In this document: positions 3,779 through 22,414 of the stretch, piece by piece | Layout: each line of letters opens with the position of its first letter | Numbering within the stretch: the stretch's first letter is position 1 | IMG/VR virus record: IMGVR_UViG_3300042455_001048 | Span: 1 to 22,414 of that record | DNA length: 22,414 nucleotides | From: a virus | Strand: one strand, 5' to 3' | Position numbers and translations under genes: made by a program | Notes under the pieces: generated by a model | The model's database searches: none | What the model saw: the letters and a program-made list of their open reading frames with translations, nothing else | Told to the model about the DNA's origin: nothing

Positions 3779-6700
3779 ATGTCCAACTCGTATAGAATAA
3801 GAACCAAACCTGGTGTTGATAGCTCAATTAAGATTTTAATTGACCAAGAGTTTGAATATTTAGAGATTCTTTCTCTAAAAATATTACAAAGCCAAATTTA
3901 CACAAGACAGTGTTCCGACTATGGAGTTATTGTTGGTAGAGTTAGTATTAATAATGGTTTTGGTATTCCTAACGCAAAAGTATCTGTTTTCATACCTTTG
4001 GACAGTATGGACGAAAACGACCCTGTTATTTCTGAGTTATATCCTTACAAAACTTTATCAGATTTAAATGAAGATGGGTATAGATATAATTTATTACCTT
4101 ATAAACAACAACATCCAGGTCATAATCCTACGGGGACCTTCTTTACAAGAGAAGATGTGTTAATCAACCCAACTCTTATTGAAGTTTACGACAAGTACTA
4201 TAAGTATAATGCGATAACTAATGACAGTGGGGATTATATGATATTTGGGGTACCTGTAGGGGCTCAAACGGTTGTTGTTGACCTTGACCTTTCAGATATT
4301 GGTGAGTTCTCTTTAGCACCACAAGATTTAATTAGAATGGGGATTACTACAGAATCACAAGTTTCTGGGACAAACTTTAAATCATCTACAAATTTACGAG
4401 AATTACCTCAAATCATTACTTTCGTTAGAAACCTTGAAGTTGAACCATTATGGGGTCAACCTGAAATTTGTAATTTAGGTATTACAAGAACTGATTTTGA
4501 TTTATCCGCAGAATTTAATATTAACATTACACCTACCGCGATTTTTATGGGTTCTTTAGTATCATCTATAGAAGAACAGTATGTTAAGAAGAGTTGTAAA
4601 CCAACCTTAACCTCAGGGGCGCTTTGTTCTTTAGTTGCGGGGCCTGGTGAGATATTAGCAATTAGACACACAATTGCTCAAGATTCTAACGGACGACCTA
4701 TATTAGAAACAATTGATTTGGAATCAGGGGGACAAGTTATTGATGAAAATGGTACTTGGCTTGTGGATTTGCCGATGAACTTGGATTATGTTATCACTAA
4801 TGAGTTTGGTGAACAAGTTATTTCAGACAACCCAAAAAATGGTATCCCAACAAAAGGTAGGTATCGATTTAAAGTTAAATGGAACCAATCACCATCAGTT
4901 TCTGCTGACCCTATTAAAAGGGGGTATTTTTTAGTTCCAAATATTAAAGAGTACGGGTGGAAAAAAATTGGAAATATTAACGTAGACCCACTTACTAATA
5001 ATACCGCAACTGCCTTAAATCGAGACGCGGCACAAAGGTCATACGCGTTCAGTTTAGATTGGGCGGATTATGGATTAACGGGGACATCCATGGGTAATCA
5101 GATGATTGATGAGGCGATTAGGTGTGAAGATAAATTTTACGAGTTTCAATACAATAAGGTTTATACTGTATCACAATTAATTACTCAATATAGAAATGGG
5201 TATGGTAACTGGAGAATTATTGCGATAAAAGATATTTTAGATAGTGATGTTAAATGTTCTAGCGACAATAATAAGTTTCCAACAAATGATGCGGTATATA
5301 GATTTGATTTAATTTATCTCCTATTTACGATAATGATGTTTGTTTTTAGACCGATATTATATGTGTTATTACTAATAGTACACATTTTAGCTTTTTTTTT
5401 AATGCTTATTGGCCCTATATTAGCAATCATCGCGATAGTTGTCTATCTTGTTGTTATTACTATCTGTACATTTATTAATGGGGTGATATGGGTGATTAAC
5501 GGAATTCCTTTTGTTAGTCTTGATTACTTGGATTGTCCTGATGTTAAGGATATTAAGGAAACGGTTAACCTCCTGTTAAATTTATATAAAAAATTTACTA
5601 ATTTAAGACTCCCTAATTTATCATATCCCGACTGTGAATTCTGTCAATGTACTGATGGAGACGCAATCGTAATTGACAATGCTGATTATCCAGATGCGGT
5701 AGCTAATGTTGCACAAACCGCTCAAGAAGCTGGTGCTAATGCGGTTTTAAGTCCCTTTGAACTTTCAACAAGTTATAACGCGGCCTCACCATATAATACG
5801 GATAACCTTGTTTATGAGCAGTTATTTGCGGGGACATCATTAGGTAATGCTAACCAAGCAAATAATCCATTAACACCTCAAACACGTGCACCAAAACTTA
5901 TACCAGTGTCGGGTGGCGTGAGTAATCAAGGTAATGATTATGAGTTTACAACAAGTTTAACTCAAGCGGAAAGATTAAATTTATTTAATACTAAAGCAAA
6001 GTTTTTCAGAAACGACATTAATAATAATCCTGGTGGTGGTGTTAATATAATTAACGTTTCATTTAATCCTAACGATATTGGTGTTACTCACCAAGATAAT
6101 GTTATCGTACTTATGGTAGACCCTAGCGCGGCGGAAACTTTTCTACCTGGTAATTTAATAACTTTTCAAGACCCTGCAAACTCTACTGACCCTAATATGA
6201 CAGGGTTTACGTCTATTAATGATTATGGTACTACGAGTAGTACAGGTACTACGGTTAATAATAAACCAGGTAGTACTTCAAATGTTGGTAATATTACAGT
6301 CCAATATGCCGATTATACAAACGGTAATGGTCCTGCATTGACTAAAACATATACTAGTCAACAAGCTGATAATGATGCGCAGTACGCAAAATTCCCAATG
6401 GATGTTGAGTATTTCCAAGTAATTACCGCACAGACTTATTCCGACTATTTTACAATATGTAACCAACCAGGAAGTTTTGGTGCTTATCATGGTTTAATAA
6501 ATAGATTTATTAATAACCATATGAAATTCAATAGAATTTATGGTAAATCTTTTGGGTCAGGATTTTGGATAAATGAGTTAAATATTAATTATCCCGGCGC
6601 ATTTCCACTAATAAAACCTAGTCTTTATTTCCCTGAATTTAATGAACAAATTGTTGTTTTTTTAGTTAGAGGGGTTGACCCGTATTCTACAAGAAGTAAT

Positions 6701-9265
6701 TGTGAATACGACCTCAGTGTTTTGTATGGTGATGTTGTGACAGCTTCTTCAATTTCTAATACATGGGGTTTTACTAACAGAGTAAAAGTTACTAGTGGTG
6801 TTGGTGGGGCGCCTAAATATCATTTAAATCAACCAATTAAACCTGGTTTTAAAAATATTAGACATAATTTAACAAATAATTTTGATACCGATACTTATAG
6901 TGGTCAAAAATTATATTTTGATTCCTTCCATTATCAACCGAGTCCGACTGGCCCCGCGGCTTTTAGTGGATTTAATTCTAATTTACAAACTTACTATTCT
7001 TCATTAGATAATGGTAGTATGTCGTTCACACCTCAAGTTGGTACTCCTAGTTTAGAGACTGGTTTTAATTCTGACACAACTTACGGTGTTAATGTTGATG
7101 GTAACATTAATTACTTTGCTAGAGAATTTAATTCACAACCAGGTTTAATTGACCCAAATACAAATAACTACCTCGCTCCCATAAACCCTTATAATGTTCC
7201 AAACACTAATTTTCCCAACACTGTAAGTCGTGGATATTACGATAATGAAATTATTGAAGGAGGGTCTGGAATGTATTGTCAAACTTTTGTAAGAGCACTT
7301 AGCGTAGCGGCAAGTATAGGTGGAACCTACGACTATAAATCATATTATTATGCACCAAAATACCCTATTGCTAACATGTCATATAATTTGGGTGGTAGTC
7401 GAAAAATAATAATGAGGTCAGATAGATTACCTACATCTACTACATTACAAAACAATTTAAATAATAGTTTTGCATTACATAACAATGTTAATTTCTCAGT
7501 ATATTCAATTAGTGATGATGGTACTTCAGTGCAAGCTCAAGGTGTTGGTGGCGGCCAATCGGGAAGTATAACGGGTAATACTGCGGACTCATTAAGTGAT
7601 GGTGAGACGGAACCTCAAATTATTAGTTCAGTTATTGACTCATTCAACTGTGGGGCGATGATTAATTTAGACTGTTATAAAGAGGTTAATGGAGAGTTAG
7701 TTGTTGATTATACAGGGCCTTGTGGGTATACCTTTTGGAACAAGAAACTGGTGACAAAGGGATGTTATACTTTTATAACTACAATTTTTTTATCATTAGT
7801 CTCAGACTTTAAATTATTAACCGAGTGGGTTAGTCGTTTATTAATAACATTTGCCGCATGTCGAAACGTGTGGGGACATCTGTTCACAAATAATTGGATT
7901 AATGGTACTTTATACGCATTTAATTTTAATAATGATGTCACATTTACATCTCCATTATCACCAAATCCAAATCAAGCAAGATATTCTTATTGTGATGATG
8001 TGGTTATATTACATAATAATACTAACAATTTTTATTATAGAAGTAGCCCATGGGACCGAATTGAGTTTATTGGACAAAATAGAGCAACACCAAATACTTT
8101 TACTTCGGCATTATTTGGGGGGTATGGTGGAAATATGTATAATTTATTATACCCAACGACCATTATGGATTTAGGTCCAAGAAATGATTATTTACAAGAT
8201 ATTGTAATGTCAGATAAATATGATGGATATGTTGCTAATAAATTAAAATCAACTACTTTCTCAGATGTTACTGAATTATTAAATTTGTTCGTAATTACTA
8301 GGTTGGCTAATTCAAGTTTCTTACAACTATTAATTGGTGGAGGAAATGTGTTCTCATATTTTAGTAGAGTTAAAAATATGGTTGATGGGGATTACGCTCA
8401 GTCGATTTCAATTAATTCAGAACTTGGAGTTGCACCATTTCAATCGGCAAATTACCCCGACAGACCTGGACAAGATTCTATTTATATTAATACGCTTTCA
8501 GATGATGACCAAGTATTTGGAATATTCTATCAATCAGATACAAGACTAAGAGATTTAATTAGCCCAAAAAGGACAATTATTGACGATACTGTTCCGGCAA
8601 CTAATGTGTGCGCGTTTAGTAATATTGAAGTTTCTTCCCAAGACGTTCCATTTTATCAATGGGAAGTTAGGACAAATAAAGTTGGTTCAAACGATAGTAT
8701 TTTTGGTAGTCAAGTTAATGGGTGGATGACTGACCCGTTATCTACAACTAGTTTCTTTACTAAGAAATATCAAAGTTTAGATAGAATAGAATCAGCGTCA
8801 AGATATTTTAGAACTAATTCTACCGCAATGACTAAGTACTTTAAGGGTTATCTATATAGTGTTGAACCAAAGACCGTTACAGGTGTTTGTAGTATTTTTG
8901 GTAATGTTTTAACAATTTATTCTCCCATTCCACAACTTTTACAAGAAGGGTTTGTATTAAGTGCCGCAGGGATTATTCCAAATACTACGATAATAAGTCA
9001 ATTAACTGTAGCATTACCAAGTACTGTTGCGGGTGGTTCAGGTACTTATCTTATTGATACTCCGCAAAATTTTGTTGGAGGGCCATTTACCGCAGTAGGG
9101 TTTATATATAGTGCGGATATTATCACTCAAGACCAAAACACCCCTAAAGGTAGAGTAATAAACACAGGAGCTCCTTTCTATTTCTATTTTGGTTTGAAGA
9201 GAGGTGGTACCGCATTTGATAGATTTGTGATTAAATGGGTCGATACTAATGATATAACTGCGTAA
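3779..9265 (+). CDS. Giant structural (baseplate/tail) protein with Ig-like domain and internal transmembrane-like segment
   Basis: The 1828-aa product is not a family I can name. Residues about 48-172 look like a carboxypeptidase-regulatory/Ig-like sandwich: GVIVGRVSINNGFGIPNAKV, then SGDYMIFGVPVGAQTVVV. A second beta region ends GIPTKGRYRFKVKW near 370. Residues 512-578 are almost wholly hydrophobic with one Arg and one His, enough for two or three membrane spans, followed by cysteines 586, 619, 622 and 624 (PDCEFCQC). Residues 720-1270 are Asn/Thr/Gly/Tyr-rich, as in extended beta structure. A second, milder hydrophobic stretch is near 1328-1365. Residues about 1702-1765 carry an inserted module ending AGGSGTYLID, like those common in phage fibre proteins. 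There is no signal peptide and no Shine-Dalgarno (AAAAAAAGACCAAT precedes ATG). Position directly after the gp6-like gene argues for a virion baseplate or tail role; it may be membrane-penetrating, which is inference. Confidence 0.75.
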   Translation: MSNSYRIRTKPGVDSSIKILIDQEFEYLEILSLKILQSQIYTRQCSDYGVIVGRVSINNGFGIPNAKVSVFIPLDSMDENDPVISELYPYKTLSDLNEDGYRYNLLPYKQQHPGHNPTGTFFTREDVLINPTLIEVYDKYYKYNAITNDSGDYMIFGVPVGAQTVVVDLDLSDIGEFSLAPQDLIRMGITTESQVSGTNFKSSTNLRELPQIITFVRNLEVEPLWGQPEICNLGITRTDFDLSAEFNINITPTAIFMGSLVSSIEEQYVKKSCKPTLTSGALCSLVAGPGEILAIRHTIAQDSNGRPILETIDLESGGQVIDENGTWLVDLPMNLDYVITNEFGEQVISDNPKNGIPTKGRYRFKVKWNQSPSVSADPIKRGYFLVPNIKEYGWKKIGNINVDPLTNNTATALNRDAAQRSYAFSLDWADYGLTGTSMGNQMIDEAIRCEDKFYEFQYNKVYTVSQLITQYRNGYGNWRIIAIKDILDSDVKCSSDNNKFPTNDAVYRFDLIYLLFTIMMFVFRPILYVLLLIVHILAFFLMLIGPILAIIAIVVYLVVITICTFINGVIWVINGIPFVSLDYLDCPDVKDIKETVNLLLNLYKKFTNLRLPNLSYPDCEFCQCTDGDAIVIDNADYPDAVANVAQTAQEAGANAVLSPFELSTSYNAASPYNTDNLVYEQLFAGTSLGNANQANNPLTPQTRAPKLIPVSGGVSNQGNDYEFTTSLTQAERLNLFNTKAKFFRNDINNNPGGGVNIINVSFNPNDIGVTHQDNVIVLMVDPSAAETFLPGNLITFQDPANSTDPNMTGFTSINDYGTTSSTGTTVNNKPGSTSNVGNITVQYADYTNGNGPALTKTYTSQQADNDAQYAKFPMDVEYFQVITAQTYSDYFTICNQPGSFGAYHGLINRFINNHMKFNRIYGKSFGSGFWINELNINYPGAFPLIKPSLYFPEFNEQIVVFLVRGVDPYSTRSNCEYDLSVLYGDVVTASSISNTWGFTNRVKVTSGVGGAPKYHLNQPIKPGFKNIRHNLTNNFDTDTYSGQKLYFDSFHYQPSPTGPAAFSGFNSNLQTYYSSLDNGSMSFTPQVGTPSLETGFNSDTTYGVNVDGNINYFAREFNSQPGLIDPNTNNYLAPINPYNVPNTNFPNTVSRGYYDNEIIEGGSGMYCQTFVRALSVAASIGGTYDYKSYYYAPKYPIANMSYNLGGSRKIIMRSDRLPTSTTLQNNLNNSFALHNNVNFSVYSISDDGTSVQAQGVGGGQSGSITGNTADSLSDGETEPQIISSVIDSFNCGAMINLDCYKEVNGELVVDYTGPCGYTFWNKKLVTKGCYTFITTIFLSLVSDFKLLTEWVSRLLITFAACRNVWGHLFTNNWINGTLYAFNFNNDVTFTSPLSPNPNQARYSYCDDVVILHNNTNNFYYRSSPWDRIEFIGQNRATPNTFTSALFGGYGGNMYNLLYPTTIMDLGPRNDYLQDIVMSDKYDGYVANKLKSTTFSDVTELLNLFVITRLANSSFLQLLIGGGNVFSYFSRVKNMVDGDYAQSISINSELGVAPFQSANYPDRPGQDSIYINTLSDDDQVFGIFYQSDTRLRDLISPKRTIIDDTVPATNVCAFSNIEVSSQDVPFYQWEVRTNKVGSNDSIFGSQVNGWMTDPLSTTSFFTKKYQSLDRIESASRYFRTNSTAMTKYFKGYLYSVEPKTVTGVCSIFGNVLTIYSPIPQLLQEGFVLSAAGIIPNTTIISQLTVALPSTVAGGSGTYLIDTPQNFVGGPFTAVGFIYSADIITQDQNTPKGRVINTGAPFYFYFGLKRGGTAFDRFVIKWVDTNDITA

Positions 9266-9266
9266 T

Positions 9267-11063
9267 ATGGGGAATAGAATAGATACTCGAGTAGTTTTAG
9301 GGTCATTAAGGTACAAGTCGGCACCTGACACAAACCTAATGTTTAATGTACCTTTAGTTCAAACTAATAAGGAGAATATTGAATTTGATAGGAATATTAA
9401 TATTGACTTACAACAAGTTTTTGATGATGAAAGACAAAAATCCGATACATTTAGACCTGCGTGCAAGTTCTCATTATTATTTAACAATTCTTATAGTGGG
9501 TCAACTAATTACGTACCATTAGAAAATAATTTATATTATGTTAACGCTGTTGCAGCTGCTAAACTACAATGTGGGTATAATCCACAAACTGTTCTTTGGT
9601 CAGGGTTTCCACAATATAATGAGTTTGACTTTGTTCGCACAGATTATAATGTCCCAGGATATACTCAACCACCCAATAATCATATTACTTTTATACCTAA
9701 AAGTGCTTCAAGTTATAATTGGAATTTTTTTGTTAGTTATGCTTATGATAATGATTTTACAAAACCATTAGAGGCTATTGACCAAAAAAGTGGACAATTA
9801 TTACAATGGATTTCTGGTGGAGGAATACCATTTATAATTAATAACACAACATTTAATGGACAAAATTTAGTATCATTTAGATGTCCGGTAAAACATGGTT
9901 TATCTATTGGTGAGCACGTAAAACTTAACTTCAGTTACATTGGAATTGACACATTTCAAGTATATTCATTAGGAGACCAAAAATCGGGGAGTGAAGAATA
10001 CATATTCAATATATATAACGTTGGGTTTACTGGCGCTGTTTTTGTTAATAATAAAAAAGGTTTTTTTAAAAGAATTATTGATATTGAAAATCCTAATGAT
10101 ACTACCTCACAATATTATGTTAGAAGACATAAATTATTAACTAACTCGCAAGACGCGGTATTAGTTAACGCAGGATTTGACCAAAATATTTTTGGTAATA
10201 AAAAGAAATTTGAAAGTAGTGGATTTACGCCAAATCGAGTTGCTAGGGTTTCAACTAAAGAAGGCTCGCAATCATATACACTATCTTTTAATAAAGACAT
10301 AAATATTAATCCTATTAGAGATAATCAAAAACGACCTATAAGTGAGTTATTTTTCACTGTCATTTGGAAAGGTTATTTTGGATTAATGTTTGGTACTAAA
10401 AAAAATCCAAATGACTATTTAGGTCTTAAACAAGGTTATGAATTTAATTTACCGGTTGACCCCGCAAACAATCAACCTAGTTCTTGGTGGGAGAACCTAA
10501 ACAGTTTATCCGACACAACATTTCCTGTTGGTTTTTATAACACACCACTTGGTGCTGGTTTAGGGCCTAATTCAGGGCCAATACCATTTACCTATATTGA
10601 ATCGTTAAAACAAAATGATATTTTAGATGGGGATTTGTGTGAGTGGAATGAATCGGAACAAAAAGAAAGAGTTATCTCAAAATTATATCATAAGTACAGA
10701 TTTAACCCATTTGTATTAAGTGTGACAGAACCACAACAATCACCCTCAAACATGTTTGGGTATTATTATCAACCTCATTACCCAATAAAGATTAGGGATT
10801 ATTCTGATTATATTGAAACGGGTAGTAAACAATTAACTGAGGGTATCCCTGACTATGCGTTTTATTCGCAAAAAACCGATTCATTTATTTGGAGAGATAT
10901 ATACCAATATGGTTTTATTAATAATGGTATTGGGGTTAATTACCCATTTATTAATGGTACCCATTACCCTTATAATTATAATATTTTTAGAATAATTCCG
11001 GAAGGAAGTAATTATGGTATAGAAGGATTAACAACTGACCCTATTATCGATGGATGTGAGTAA
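9267..11063 (+). CDS. Unrecognised tail/baseplate structural protein (598 aa)
   Basis: I do not recognise a named family. The start is an ATG one base after the upstream TAA (TAATATGG), so translation is probably coupled. The protein is rich in Tyr, Asn, Phe and Gly without long hydrophobic helices or a signal peptide, consistent with a beta-rich virion protein. Residues about 195-255 read like a small beta module of the kind PVKHGLSIGEHVKLNF, then DTFQVYSL, a pattern (pH-G-L-x-x-G-x-x-V) recurring in phage structural proteins. The C-terminal third has many Tyr/Pro pairs (YYYQPHYPIKIRDYSDY) and ends DPIIDGCE. Its last 14 bases overlap the start of the next gene. Context makes it part of the same assembly as the 1828-aa protein; the exact role is unknown. 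Confidence 0.7.
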   Translation: MGNRIDTRVVLGSLRYKSAPDTNLMFNVPLVQTNKENIEFDRNINIDLQQVFDDERQKSDTFRPACKFSLLFNNSYSGSTNYVPLENNLYYVNAVAAAKLQCGYNPQTVLWSGFPQYNEFDFVRTDYNVPGYTQPPNNHITFIPKSASSYNWNFFVSYAYDNDFTKPLEAIDQKSGQLLQWISGGGIPFIINNTTFNGQNLVSFRCPVKHGLSIGEHVKLNFSYIGIDTFQVYSLGDQKSGSEEYIFNIYNVGFTGAVFVNNKKGFFKRIIDIENPNDTTSQYYVRRHKLLTNSQDAVLVNAGFDQNIFGNKKKFESSGFTPNRVARVSTKEGSQSYTLSFNKDININPIRDNQKRPISELFFTVIWKGYFGLMFGTKKNPNDYLGLKQGYEFNLPVDPANNQPSSWWENLNSLSDTTFPVGFYNTPLGAGLGPNSGPIPFTYIESLKQNDILDGDLCEWNESEQKERVISKLYHKYRFNPFVLSVTEPQQSPSNMFGYYYQPHYPIKIRDYSDYIETGSKQLTEGIPDYAFYSQKTDSFIWRDIYQYGFINNGIGVNYPFINGTHYPYNYNIFRIIPEGSNYGIEGLTTDPIIDGCE

Positions 11064-17000: not shown

Positions 17001-17059
17001 CCTTTGGTGATAACTTCAAACTAAATGTCGGAATAAACTTTAATATTTTATGTAATTAA
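14039..17059 (+). CDS. Large baseplate protein, tail protein I / gp7-like (1006 aa), tentative
   Basis: The strongest clues are in the middle. Residues about 360-402 read FDETKKFIDALAFMTSVNYN then IPSQLLKNLAQTLGWG, and about 450-480 read YRNLVLNSAYLFKSKGTRKS then IEVLMRLVGAPEALVEFNEY. The helical 'lyKsKGT...l.r..G.p' pattern recalls the phage tail protein I / gp7-like baseplate proteins that join the wedge to fibres. T4 gp7 is 1032 aa, a similar length. Residues 1-300 are beta-rich. Near 840-860 there is a Cys cluster (ECCKFIPVPCKPC), with more Cys to the end (ILCN), suggesting metal binding or a Cys-rich fold. It starts in TAATG with the previous stop and overlaps the fibre start in the same way, so it lies immediately before the fibre as I precedes H in P2-like phages. 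The function is inferred; a fibre-adaptor role is likely. Confidence 0.72.
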   Translation: MAVTKYTCPPQSASGAGTFSDNLVGFQLVTGGGLTQGNFEFVSSINEKTNRTFNTGNFSDPISLDSMGVSGVVQSKSIFENNFKVYPNFDMSQITNFTLYGSMVKRISVSVETIISKFPAALESTFMGTNYVTGATATNILFNSVYDETVFDLDVSKLRNPFDIDFSVNSTRNLELKEISVSPLRDMTIQYAKYSLYVNGVGYDVKSLTPTTNTSSGILQISVSGNPFSGQSIVYYSFVIRPNDYEVTKIFNEDLDEVENFLLNRSVTPIYTATFQVPRESEDGTYYTSNQPITWPLYGEWNIDIITKSFENYLIQLNEVSEYFDIYTTNLVSRFLITGSFKEFDTVTQKMEKVLQIYGRSFDETKKFIDALAFMTSVNYNVGNDIPSQLLKNLAQTLGWGINISPITEDDFLGSVFGQKNKDNSQFTGTSQKQTPDELNYQYYRNLVLNSAYLFKSKGTRKSIEVLMRLVGAPEALVEFNEYVYVADQKINLEQFDTQFYNISGGTYIQELPTYEQGNTFNIMGVTYTGFTTQTTIQDVNINRGEYPMDFYGYPQAPIDTENYFFQIGSGWFEQTPKHRAPEQVDLNNSVFTGSNPNYQTTLIPYSYGQEYLNRFRDFPFMTLGYNLSAVPDNNKSWTDNEVGIRSNLDGGINARYFVDDERLVLNVKNVDLFLNPAQGIVYDVWYMSRQYNYPIPNQGLNYVAPTYCNPHPNIEYPQRGGVDWTEINPQPKRKTFFEFAQTFWQNTINVRNRQYATDGKTSGYPTLSSIFWKYLESQKTINIPNDNFTYQTMIDYVNGMGDYWIRLVEQMIPATTIWNTGVKYENSIFHRQKFVWRRQECCKFIPVPCKPCSLTSNIYRYDCNIQSVECGVYPWYGSSTINSFNAVLGQALNNYLTANGYTLNDCLLNTLTTNWFVEIKINDSTVIQYPFFDGIGYTNISLSSPQPNDWDSALLIALNDLTIYGYDYYLTTTDTIVIYNSICSTSAFGDNFKLNVGINFNILCN

Positions 17060-20000
17060 TGTCTTGTACTTTATTATATACCTCAACTATAACTGGTGAT
17101 TGTTCAAATACTAATGTTGGAGGATTCACTATAGATATTAATGGTAGTGCTCCTGATTATTCAATTCAGTGGATTAACCCATCTTCTTTAGGAACTATAG
17201 CGTTAGGTGCTGGTGTTATACAATATGAGGTTACATCATTATCTGCGGGGACTTACACATTTAATATTATTGATTCATGTATACCAACATTAACGATTGT
17301 CCCCGTAAATGTATATATATCAAGTGGAACGTGTGTAAGTATTGATTCTCATACTAATGCTACTTGTGGCCAAAATAACGGTAGTCTTACCGCATCAACC
17401 CAAAATCTTTATGGTATAAGTCAATTCTACCTTTACGATACAATTAATGGTTATATTACTTCGGCGTCATCAGTGACAAATACTTTTGCATTTGATAATA
17501 TGTTAAGTCCTGGAATTTATTATGTTATAGGTGATGATGGTGGTGGATGTTCCGGTAAGTCAGAAACATGTATTGTTCAAAGTGCGGAAACATTTGACTA
17601 CGGATTTTATGTTGTTAATGATGCGGGGTGTGCGGTAAATTCGGGTAAAATATTTATTACAGGATTAACAGGCACGCCACCATACACTTATTTATGGTCA
17701 AACGGAGGAACAAACTCATCAATTAGCGGTTTAAGTGCCTCGACTTACGGTGTTATTGTTACTGATGGTAATGGATGTACTATTTCTAAATCGGTAACGG
17801 TATTACAAGTGCCATTAGTTGGTTTAGGAGCGTTTACCTCAATTAGTCCAACTTGTTTTGCGTCTAACGGAGAAATTACGGTTACGGTAACAGGTGGAAC
17901 CGCGCCATATTATTTTTCAGGTTCAAATGGGACTGTTTATATTACATTTGACCAAACTTACACTTTTACAAATTTAGCTTCAGGTGTTTTTACAGTACAA
18001 GTGACGGATGCTGGTTTATGTAATTTTGTTGCAAGTACAACATTATTACCTCCAGGAGGATTTAGTATTGTTGGTATTGGTGTTAATAATTCAAACTGTA
18101 ACAATAACGGGGGGTCTTTAAACCCAATTCAATTATTTGGTGGTAGTGGTAATTACACCTATGACTTACAATATCCTGATGGACATCATGATATTGTAAG
18201 TACAACAAATCAAAATTGGCAATTTACGGGACTTTCAGGAGGTACTTATAATTTAACAATTAATGATGGTGTCTGTACCTTTACCAGTGCTTATACTATC
18301 AATAATACTGTTCAATTTAATTTAACAACAACAAGTACAGGAACAACTTGTGGTTTTACTAATGGAGCTATTAATTTAGAAATTTCAGGTAGTACAGGGC
18401 CTTATACTTACTCAATAAATGGGTTAAGTTTGGTTTCGCCTTTAAGTGCTTATACATTTAGTAATCTGGCCTCAGGAACATATACGGCTAGTGTTACAGA
18501 CTTTAGTGGGTGTCAACAAACTAATTCTGTATTAGTTGCCCCATCCGCAAATCCTAATTTTATATTAAATGCGACAAATACAGTAAATGGTTCTGATGGT
18601 ACTATCACCGCATACATAACTAATGGTTTACCACCATTTACTTTAAATTGGAGTAGTAACGTAAATGGACAAACAGGGGATACGATTAATAGTTTATCAG
18701 CTGGCACGTATTCACTTACAGTTATAGATTTTAATGGGTGTTCTACAATATCAAGTGTTATTATTACGGGTACAAATAGTGTGGCATCCTATCAGACATA
18801 TACAATATGTGATACTGATTTTATCAATTCACCAAATGCAATTAAAACGGGGCCTAAACAAATGTTAAATGAAGGTTTTTATGATTTAACATTTAATGAT
18901 ATAAATTGTGTGTTAAATGAAGCAATTTTTGAGGCGATTGTGAGTGTTAGTGGTGATGTTTTAACTCAACAATTTTATGCTGGTACAACATTAAACGAAT
19001 ATCCTGCAGATAATCAATTTTATGACACAATTACGGGGTTATTATTACAATTTGATGGTATTGCAAGTGTGGATATTAATCCTCTAAGAAACACTATTCA
19101 AATTTTAACTGATTGTGACTCGTTAGTTTCTTTATCGGATGCTCAAGTTATTATTAACATGAAAATATATTATGATATCTCGTGCGTTAGTTGTCCTAGT
19201 CCAACACCAACACCGACACAAACACCAACGCCAACTAACACTCCTACACCAACAGTCACACTTGGGTTAAGTCCAACACCAACAAATACCTCAACTCCAG
19301 CAAATACGCCAACACCTACACCAACAAAAACACCAACTCCAACACCTTTACCGATAATACCAATATGTTCTGTGATAATTAATGGTAGTACTAACGTATC
19401 CGCCTATTTTCCATCATCAAATACTAACGTATCTTTAGGTTTTTCAGTAAGTGCACTTGATATTGCACATACAACAACTAAACTATGGTTGGATACTGGA
19501 TTGATAATTAAAGAATATAACATAACATTAAACCCTTGGTCAAAAACGTTCAACAGAAACATCGCATACCCTTCAGGTGTTTCTTTAGGGGCTGGTTTAG
19601 GTGCCATTAGCAGCTCTCAGTTAATCTCAACAAACACTTCAGTATCTCCTAATCAAATAATTACTTTAGATATTACCACAAGTACCGCAGTTTCAACTGT
19701 GATTGGAACACTACTGCCTGGTAGGGAGGTTTCGGGTGATATTTTATTAACAACAACAAATAAAATATTAGTTACTAATTCAACTACCTCAGGTCCATAT
19801 CTTACATATCTAACCCAATATAGTTATCCGTCAGGTACTTTTGAAGTTGAGGTCGATATTACGTCAACCACACCCCAACCGTATGGTATATTTATCGATA
19901 GTGGTAATATATATGTTTGTAACAATGGTGGTCAAATATATAAGGTTAATGTTAACTTTCCATATACACAAACATTATTTAATAACTCAGGGTTATATGT

Positions 20001-20346
20001 TGAAGGAGCATCTCAAGTACCAAGTTGTTGTAATACTAACCTAAACTTACCTATAACATACTATACTTGGTTTACTAATCTTGATACCTACACATCATCT
20101 GATATTACTCCCTGTATAGCCACTGGTTGTGGGGCAAATTTATACACAGCAACATCGACAATAGCTCCTGGAATTGTAATATATCAGGATAATGCTTTAA
20201 CAATACCATTTGTTGGTACTAATTATGGTGTTTCAGGTGGTGGATGGGGTAGATTGTTTTTATCAGATGATTGCCCAATAATTGGATTGAGAAATATTGC
20301 ACAAGTAAATGGTTCAGGACAAGTTCTAAGTAATTATACATGTTAA
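17059..20346 (+). CDS. Tail fibre / adhesin with SprB-like repeats and Pro-Thr linker (1095 aa)
   Basis: The protein is modular. Residues 5-570 hold about seven SprB-like repeats of roughly 70-80 aa, each with a Cys near the start, then a G-x-I/L-x-x-x-x-x-G-x-x-PY core (for example [17 protein letters not shown]), then LSAGTY and VTDxNGC. Residues 575-710 form a separate globular module ([10 protein letters not shown] to YDISCVSC). Residues 713-764 are a linker of alternating Pro and Thr. Residues 769-1095 are beta-rich ([17 protein letters not shown], then a Cys/Gly-rich end YTC) and may be the receptor-binding head. No signal peptide or anchor is seen, so it fits a virion fibre and not a secreted adhesin. 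The start overlaps the tail-I-like gene by one base. SprB repeats are known from the Flavobacterium gliding adhesin; their use on a phage fibre suggests a Bacteroidetes host, which is inference. Confidence 0.82.
17071..18768 (+). repeat. Tandem SprB-like protein repeats (about seven units)
   Basis: Units start near residues 13, 100, 190, 265, 346, 430 and 505 of the fibre. Each ends in a T-Y-x-(L/V/F)-x-(V/I)-x-D motif followed by a Cys in most units. They are divergent at the DNA level, so this is an old protein-level array and not a recent tandem duplication. Confidence 0.7.
19195..19350 (+). repeat. Pro-Thr-rich linker coding repeat
   Basis: About 52 codons alternate CCA/CCT/CCG/CCC-type proline and ACA/ACT/ACC/ACG threonine with Asn, Ser and Lys interruptions ([19 protein letters not shown] and so on). 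The mixed codon choice shows selection on the protein. It forms an extended, flexible spacer between the SprB/globular part and the C-terminal head of the fibre. Confidence 0.85.
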
Positions 20347-21629: not shown

Positions 21630-22414
21630 ATGACTAACACGACATCTTTACTTCAACAAAAAAACGAATGTGATGTAATTACAATATTTCCAATGACCGT
21701 TGAGTGTTTAGTTAACAATCCGTCATCACAAAATGCGACTGATGGAGGTTTATCTATTTCTATAACAGGAGGAACACCACCATACATAGTTGCTTGGAGT
21801 AATGGTAATATATCTCCGGCAATTAATAATTTAGGTGCTGGTAGTTATACGGCAATAGTTACTGACTATTCTTGGTCAGGGAGTGGTCCTGATTATACGG
21901 CAACTACAACATGTGTGTTAACCGCACCTATAACACCTACAACTACAACCACAACAACGGTTGCTCCTGTATTACTCTATGATATTTGTTTAACAGTGTA
22001 TAAACAACCAAGTAATTATCAAATACACTTTAACCCTAATGGTATATATAATGGTATCTATAGTAGTGGTTATCAATCATGGATATCAGATGACTCAGTA
22101 TACCAAATTGTTTGGGGTACACTATACCAGTCATGGACTGTAATTCCGCCCCCAACAAATCCTGGTTATTATTTACTATCACCCTCACCATATCCACCTT
22201 TAACGGGATGGTATATAAATGGTGCGTTAGGAACTGTTGTATCAAATCAAGGTCTTTGTGTACCGTTACCAAGTAACCCGTCATTTACATATTCACTTAC
22301 TCAACCAACTTGTATATGTGATGGTAATATAATTATAACGGCTTCTAATGGAACACCACCATATCAGTACTCAGTTGATAATGGAGTGACATTCACTAGT
22401 AATTCAGGGCTCTT
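21630..22414 (+). CDS. Second SprB-repeat tail fibre / adhesin, N-terminal part (3' end cut by window)
   Basis: The frame is open from ATG at 21630 to the window edge (261 codons). Residues about 23-98 form one SprB-like repeat: ATDGGLSISITGGTPPYIVA, then WSNGN, NNLGAGSYTAIVTDYSW and a closing Cys. Residues 102-110 are a short Thr linker (TPTTTTTTT). The next module (about 114-210) is rich in Trp, Tyr, Pro and Ser (YQSWISDDSVYQIVWGTLYQ, PLTGWYING) and ends in GLCVPLP; it resembles a carbohydrate- or surface-contact beta module but I cannot name it. A further SprB repeat begins near 222 (TCICDGNIIITASNGTPPYQ) and is cut off. It has no Shine-Dalgarno. With the 1095-aa fibre it suggests a set of modular fibres built from the same parts. 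The total length is unknown. Confidence 0.78.
   Translation, partial: MTNTTSLLQQKNECDVITIFPMTVECLVNNPSSQNATDGGLSISITGGTPPYIVAWSNGNISPAINNLGAGSYTAIVTDYSWSGSGPDYTATTTCVLTAPITPTTTTTTTVAPVLLYDICLTVYKQPSNYQIHFNPNGIYNGIYSSGYQSWISDDSVYQIVWGTLYQSWTVIPPPTNPGYYLLSPSPYPPLTGWYINGALGTVVSNQGLCVPLPSNPSFTYSLTQPTCICDGNIIITASNGTPPYQYSVDNGVTFTSNSGL
21933..21959 (+). repeat. Poly-threonine linker in second fibre
   Basis: ACA CCT is followed by seven threonine codons in mixed synonymous form (ACA, ACT, ACC, ACG). It separates the first SprB repeat from the Trp/Tyr-rich module, the role the Pro-Thr linker plays in the first fibre. Confidence 0.7.

Follow-up and report, generated by a model that had tools for sequence, protein, structure and literature searches.

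The passage of DNA from contractile phages across the membranes of their hosts is unclear, with the hydrophobic parts of the tape-measure protein (TMP) being one suspect, and the locus described here raises the question of what a segment of membrane strength does in a protein of the baseplate gene cluster. The window, that is, the whole analysed stretch of 22,414 nucleotides (positions 1 to 22,414 of IMG/VR virus record IMGVR_UViG_3300042455_001048), encodes a protein of 1828 aa, in which a first-pass annotation of the DNA had located a nearly all-hydrophobic run; both its place (5312-5512, aa 512-578 of the ORF 3779-9265) and its character were confirmed. The 67 residues are I16, L11, V9, F7, Y3, T3, M3, P3, A3, G3, N2, R1, H1, C1, and W1, with zero K, D, and E; 57 successive residues are free of D, E, K, and R, and the share of AILMFVWC is 76%, versus 36% in the whole protein. 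The best 60-residue Kyte-Doolittle mean was 2.54, whereas 2000 shuffles of the protein gave 1.61 at most; the KD19 peak was 3.04, versus 3.15 in the most extreme of 2000 shuffles. Consequently, it is the length of the stretch, not its peak, that exceeds chance. By Kyte-Doolittle and Wimley-White octanol sums, the segment reaches transmembrane (TM) length and strength, the octanol scale also flagging many weak segments in soluble parts.

The giant gene and its neighbours are listed in Table 1. It should be noted that the following synteny counts take in identical and near-identical copies: a gp6-like gene was found 5' of the giant gene in 215 (58 within 200 nt) and a gp25-like gene in 213 of the 218 loci with more than 2.6 kb upstream, and a d598 homologue was found 3' in all 112 loci in which the giant gene is complete and followed by over 2.5 kb of sequence. 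At the locus of the helix-less relative L174 (G014:C1:10914-16211), the gp6 gene is directly followed by neighbours of 598 and 271 aa, and the giant core gene is reached about 10 kb further along.

Table 1. Positions in the window of the giant gene, its neighbours, and the parts of its product
Feature	Position	Strand	Remark
gp25-like baseplate wedge protein, 171 aa	1346..1861	+	Pfam GPW_gp25 E 3e-11; PHROG baseplate wedge E 1e-16
gp6 / Baseplate_J-like wedge protein, 612 aa	1868..3706	+	Pfam Baseplate_J E 1e-5; phrog_219 baseplate wedge E 3e-19
Giant baseplate-cluster protein, 1828 aa	3779..9265	+	Without credible Pfam or PHROG family
N-terminal conserved beta-rich core, ~aa 1-484 (~470-484 aa)	3779..5230	+	Common to the clades seen; core profile, alignment A6 (30 rows)
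C493	5255..5257	+	Invariant, 39/39 (window included) and 49/49 in the wider set
Hydrophobic helix, aa 511-573	5309..5497	+	Continuous in AlphaFold2 model, pLDDT about 75-90
H535	5381..5383	+	Invariant 39/39 (window included); 40/43 in the wider window group
CxxCxC patch C619, C622, C624	5633..5650	+	Invariant 39/39 and 49/49
Beta-rich insertion of the window family, aa 640-1330	5696..7768	+	None in L081, L130, and short homologues
Second helix of the insertion, aa 1340-1361	7796..7861	+	Directly before NNWINGxLY motif; AlphaFold2 model
NNWINGTLY motif, aa 1371-1379	7889..7915	+	Shared C-terminal core restarts here; variants in L080, L081, L130, L174
d598, 598-aa neighbour	9267..11063	+	Homologue 3' of the giant gene in 112/112 loci

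A 177-kb viral contig with an identical copy of the giant protein encodes a tail sheath of 1111 aa, a tube, a hub-like protein, and a helix-rich protein of 645 aa that is the TMP candidate; thus, the virus is a contractile-tailed phage. SprB repeats, which are repeats of Bacteroidota gliding adhesins, were present in two neighbouring phage proteins, encoded at 17059-20346 (Pfam E 2e-19; this protein also has a proline/threonine-rich linker) and at 21630-22412 (E 2e-6, just under the cut-off). Four remote relatives of the giant protein were found in genome contigs, L083 and L082 in metagenome-assembled genomes (MAGs) named Bacteroidota or Paludibacteraceae and the remaining two in MAGs bearing other names (Wolfebacteria, Mycoplasmatota). 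Since the neighbours carry SprB repeats and relatives occur in Bacteroidota and Paludibacteraceae MAGs, the hosts of these giant myophages are probably Bacteroidota. The contig of the window's virus, G001, also encodes a tail-region protein of 1693 aa (G001:C1:50342-55423) with a weak OmpA-like stretch (E 0.005, below the cut-off). Ribosomal protein S21 was encoded on two of five related giant-phage contigs (G002:C1:272389-272547 and G003:C1:27723-27878) and was not seen on G001; freshwater Bacteroidetes phages with S21 are described in PMC9723584.

Scanning of viral contigs with the window protein yielded 156 relatives confirmed by tblastn, in at least 78 distinct loci, and scanning with two remote relatives yielded the best 80 loci of 162 and of 226 relatives, these three counts overlapping; the viral-contig scan with L083 yielded no relative. 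A profile of the core (aa 1-480) found the giant protein in 245 loci, or 243 after subtraction of two partial copies of counted loci, of which 236 encoded at least 560 aa and 138 were left after removal of near-duplicates. The first-pass annotation proposed a search of homologues for conservation of the stretch, and a peak of TM strength (KD19 >=1.6) was indeed kept at aa 440-680 in 134 of these 138 non-redundant homologues, reaching at least 2.0 in 120 of them. Of the 357 further plus-strand ORFs in these loci with a length of at least 400 aa, 10 reached 1.6 and none reached 2.0. The strongest hydrophobic window fell at aa 440-680 in 135 of 138, the exceptions being L080, L083, and L153; the last lacks its N end and has its peak at 394, with the element in the same place, and L174, counted among the 135, peaks at only 1.26 and is without the element. 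The helix is therefore absent in 3/138 homologues, namely L080, L083, and L174. Under clade names coined in this analysis, the TM-like windows span a median of 77 residues among the 43 sequences of the window clade, 46 among the 23 of the aquatic-mid clade, and 43.5 among the 68 of the rumen/gut clade. The two or three membrane spans originally suggested thus match the length of the stretch in the window clade alone; what stays constant is one helix of 30-40 residues. Within the window clade, the residues of the stretch vary and its hydrophobicity is kept, with H535 as the sole invariant residue inside. Judged from these alignments, the hydrophobic helix is an old, conserved element of the baseplate-cluster protein of giant phages. 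Elsewhere in the window protein, aa 1701-1760 (8879-9058) correspond to a gap in about 90% of 39 aligned sequences and are probably a recent insertion.

In the AlphaFold2 model of aa 430-1400 (49 sequences, mean pLDDT 70.5, pTM 0.63), aa 511-573 were predicted to form one continuous helix of 63 residues, and the rest of the confident part was mostly beta, in agreement with the beta-rich flanks noted in the first reading. The model of L130, a complete compact relative of 1148 aa (68 sequences, pLDDT 69.6, pTM 0.69), likewise placed a helix, at 459-488, in a beta-rich protein; alignments A3 and A4 were not used for models, the first protein of A4 being divergent C-terminally and that of A3 having few close rows. 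Structure prediction, at moderate confidence, thus points to a single long helix in a beta-rich protein, and no hairpin was resolved in either of the two models. As for the cysteine patch reported behind the stretch, C586, C619, C622, and C624 were correctly placed, C586 occurring in only 15% of the sequences; the other three proved invariant, as did C493, which precedes the stretch, both across the 39 non-redundant full-length sequences, the window protein among them, and across the 49 of the wider set. In all, twelve cysteines were invariant in 39/39 (45, 231, 283, 449, 493, 619, 622, 624, 1291, 1299, 1329, and 1361). In the window's family, the set of C493, C619, C622, and C624 may hold both ends of the insertion to each other, probably through a metal.

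In a tblastn search, none of 50,697 phage records matched any of four family proteins, records very near the window possibly lying outside this set, and we know of no isolate of this phage family. Pfam and PHROGs gave nothing credible for the giant protein and four relatives, CarboxypepD_reg appearing below the cut-off in three remote relatives. The window model found no match at E<=0.001 in BFVD and a best Z of 4.7 in VIA. With the L130 model, the PDB gave two rows at E<=0.001 (FimA prepilin and SdrD, with TM-scores about 0.1 of the model) and the VIA rows, the best of which had Z 8.5, were mostly FnIII domains aligned to 938-1023; among the matches listed, the rows were mostly Ig/FnIII-like and surface-protein domains. 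In BFVD, the best match of the same model (E 4e-95), an uncharacterised protein of Myoviridae sp. ctPuP5, evidently belongs to the family; the rows below it were only weak and included one named 'baseplate wedge protein' (E 0.08). Among the papers found by searches on jumbo phages and on membrane helices in baseplates or tails, none had a title describing this arrangement.

If the helix serves membrane passage, then phages without it should carry another device, and for this reason the TMP was compared. The TMP candidate of the window's virus (645 aa, assigned from its place, its helix content and composition, and its varying length only) had a helix-like fraction of 0.49, that of the 1828-aa protein being 0.01, and no segment above KD19 0.85; all 12 helix-bearing genomes searched contained a homologue of it. 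The helix-less baseplate protein L083 has 728 aa, and the same contig of 39,982 bases encodes a TMP candidate with four TM-like segments (1.79-2.11). A scan with this TMP candidate found 19 loci, and the baseplate protein was present in 11 of those 19 genomes: nine combined a short baseplate protein (712-775 aa, KD19 0.94-1.34) with a TMP candidate having 3-6 segments, and two (G032 and G033) combined a baseplate helix (3.25 and 3.09) with a TMP candidate lacking segments (1.47 and 1.26). A further 36 helix-bearing genomes supplied 29 TMP candidates. Among genomes with both genes and a full-length TMP candidate (TM-like, KD19 >=1.6), 3-6 TM-like segments were found in the TMP candidate of 10/10 helix-less genomes (maxima 2.11-2.31, four of the ten sharing identical values), whereas the 43 helix-bearing genomes had none in 30 cases, one in 8, and at least two in 5, with at least three in 1/43 (maxima 0.81-2.05). 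This comparison covers genome G006, a MAG with the two genes on separate contigs, and leaves out the 8/19 and 7/36 genomes with one gene only as well as G015, G014, and G016, the last having a TMP candidate of KD19 1.29 and a baseplate protein (L082) cut before the helix region.

By clade, the TMP candidates were free of segments in 9/9 genomes of the window clade, 5/5 of the aquatic-mid clade, 2/2 for G032/G033, 1/1 for L218, and 13/26 of the rumen/gut clade; the last is mixed, the other 13 of its 26 candidates having at least one segment (eight one, five two or more). The rumen/gut candidates are 684-1448 aa long, versus 581-690 aa in the window and aquatic-mid clades. The two other helix-less relatives, L080 and L174, sit elsewhere in the core tree than the L083 type; the TMP candidate in the MAG of L080 is cut at the contig end, before the part where the segments would lie, and none was found on the contig of L174. 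The seven L083-type helix-less representatives form one clade (support 1.0) across the midpoint root from the rest. The exchange thus amounts to a single deep split, equivalent to a sample of about one evolutionary event that may have gone in either direction, and a Fisher value calculated from the counts is not to be taken as a probability. It had been expected that homologues without the stretch would speak against a membrane role: such homologues do exist (3/138 plus nine more), but the ten helix-less genomes with both genes have TM-like segments in the TMP candidate. For the same reason, the idea that the helix is dispensable because helix-less homologues exist was dropped. On this comparison of sequences, the baseplate helix and the TM-like segments of the TMP appear partly to exchange for each other, which suits a function in membrane passage more than one that is purely structural.

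The explanation that we favour, with about an even chance of being right, is that the giant protein is a baseplate protein of a contractile phage whose inserted hydrophobic helix enters a membrane and does part of the membrane work of the TMP. It builds on conservation, hydrophobicity, helix prediction, gene context, and the presence/absence exchange with the TMP. The original proposal of a membrane device carried on the baseplate and released during contraction accordingly stands as regards the conserved helix of membrane strength, the baseplate gene cluster, the CxxCxC patch, and the lack of a comparable peak in the 357 neighbouring ORFs, while the location in the virion, the insertion, and its timing are what we infer. 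The beta-rich core would be interrupted by an inserted module, the constant part of which is a very hydrophobic predicted helix of 30-40 residues (about 63 in the window protein). Most likely, the helix would be stored in the baseplate until the phage lands or the tail contracts, and would then insert into the host envelope. Pore-forming colicins offer a parallel: soluble themselves, they conceal a hydrophobic hairpin, which is inserted once a trigger acts. Because the beta-rich core continues on both sides and both halves would be bound in the baseplate, a hairpin, a re-entrant helix, or insertion during infection only would fit better than a single crossing. A ring of several copies at the tail tip could aid the crossing of the tube or the DNA. 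In these phages, the helix would perform part of the membrane work proposed for the hydrophobic segments of the TMP in T4 and other phages; the sister clade seems to retain that work in the TMP. Reaching the inner membrane would need an extra assumption, since the baseplate normally stays outside the cell; the target may be the outer membrane, or the helix may travel further, or it may act during assembly.

The faces of the helix bear on whether it meets lipid at all. Hydrophobicity had a period of 100 degrees in all three large clades (0/2000 column shuffles as strong in each), polar or small residues lining one side as a stripe, and outside the window clade the helix carried an Asn in 23/23 and 67/67 sequences of the other two clades. 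Conservation followed such a period weakly in one clade (40/2000 shuffles as strong) and not in the other two (1567/2000 and 389/2000), and the angle between the hydrophobic and the variable face was 172 degrees in the window clade, 125 in rumen/gut, and 81 in aquatic-mid, which, as far as alignments can tell, is unlike a simple lipid-facing helix. The stripe thus fits helix packing without proving lipid on the opposite side; the notion that it proves a lipid-facing bundle was dropped, as the test of conservation gave it no support. Such a stripe, together with a variable side opposite the hydrophobic one in the window clade, is what would be expected if the helix were buried in an oligomeric bundle of the baseplate or bound a tail-assembly chaperone and never met lipid. 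We consider this rather unlikely: 57 residues without D, E, K, or R look far beyond the need of a buried soluble helix, and none of the 357 neighbouring large ORFs reaches KD19 2.0. A chaperone role common to both proteins would, even so, also account for the exchange between TMP and baseplate, and there is a parallel in the TMP of TP901-1, where, according to PMC5099701, deletion of the first hydrophobic region abolished infectivity and deletion of the second had little effect, the authors regarding chaperone recruitment as likelier than membrane insertion.

Insertion into the host envelope has also to be weighed against insertion at home, where the helix, lying in the inner face of the inner membrane of the producing cell, would tether the growing baseplate without any role in entry. 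A nascent chain this hydrophobic should engage the membrane-insertion machinery. A precedent is the contractile injection system (CIS) of Anabaena (PMC8894136), which is fixed to the thylakoid membrane by a TM helix of the tail-fibre-like protein Cis13; once this helix is removed, the particles float freely. The free virion would, however, need to leave the membrane with the helix still attached, and a tether by itself leaves the absence of the helix alongside TM segments in the TMP unexplained, so that we regard this account as unlikely. Hydrophobic proteins of phages are often not part of the virion, and it is very improbable that the giant protein is such a membrane-bound assembly factor merely encoded in the baseplate cluster, as it lies near gp6-like and d598 genes in nearly all loci, its large beta-rich build resembles structural proteins, and another clade keeps helix-less versions.

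The favoured reading, a baseplate helix that enters a membrane, can be extended, tentatively and at clearly less than even chances, to a function in membrane crossing that, in a large clade of giant phages, was handed from the TMP to the baseplate or in the opposite direction, with packed helices around the tail tip that would form or seed a pore for the tube or DNA and, in the window's family, a metal clamp of four cysteines. Fixed in three large clades of uncultured giant phages, with a helix-less sister clade that has segments in its presumed TMP, the helix of membrane strength makes two related designs of one machine available, by which the question of membrane passage becomes testable by comparison, and it provides a marker for sorting giant phages by entry design.

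In comparison with known systems, tail proteins with helices of TM strength occur among TMPs with hydrophobic segments (T4 gp29, phiCD508 gp59, TP901-1, and R4C), the giant protein resembling several of them in the strength of its segment (KD19 3.04, 60-residue mean 2.54). T4 gp29, a TMP with a hydrophobic stretch, is proposed to help form a membrane channel (PMC11948020), and TMP helices are proposed to aid the passage of DNA through the membrane (PMC11948020, PMC10276861), a role doubted for TP901-1 (PMC5099701). The giant protein differs from TMPs in that its helix sits on a beta-rich protein of the baseplate cluster (helix-like fraction 0.01, beta-rich models) instead of a long, mainly helical one, and a separate helical TMP candidate is present, free of segments in the window's clade. 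Another known case is the iris/penetration domain of the megatron protein of the gene transfer agent RcGTA and of roseophage R4C (PMC7296036, PMC10276861). This tail-tip protein is also large, and its TM-capable helix is proposed to enter a membrane, the outer one according to PMC7296036, and to make a pore; that domain comprises the N-terminal 45-46 residues at the tip of a non-contractile tail, whereas the helix described here is internal (30-63 residues; aa 511-573 in the window protein, behind a core of about 480 aa) and belongs to a contractile-tail cluster. In the Anabaena thylakoid CIS, the Cis12 extension and the Cis13 TM helix are also extensions of baseplate or tail-fibre proteins that contact or span a membrane, but the anchoring is in the producer's own membrane and Cis12 is without a predicted TM helix (PMC8894136), whereas the phage helix is internal to a core protein. 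T4 gp7 and the gp7-like part of Alg12, Afp12, and Pvc12 are likewise encoded near a gp6-like protein. The gene order in T4 is 6-7-8. This gp7-like part of the contractile baseplate is a hot spot for added domains and re-engineering, according to PMC8894135. In sequence searches of the PDB, profile A6 gave no match at E<=10 and profile A1 one chance-level match, to an ABC transporter (E 0.48); no gp7-like fold was among the fold-search matches listed, and a relation to gp7 may exist even so. Thus, tail proteins proposed to enter membranes were already known, and what sets the present case apart is an internal helix of membrane strength that is fixed in a baseplate-cluster protein over three clades and that seems partly to exchange with segments of the TMP.
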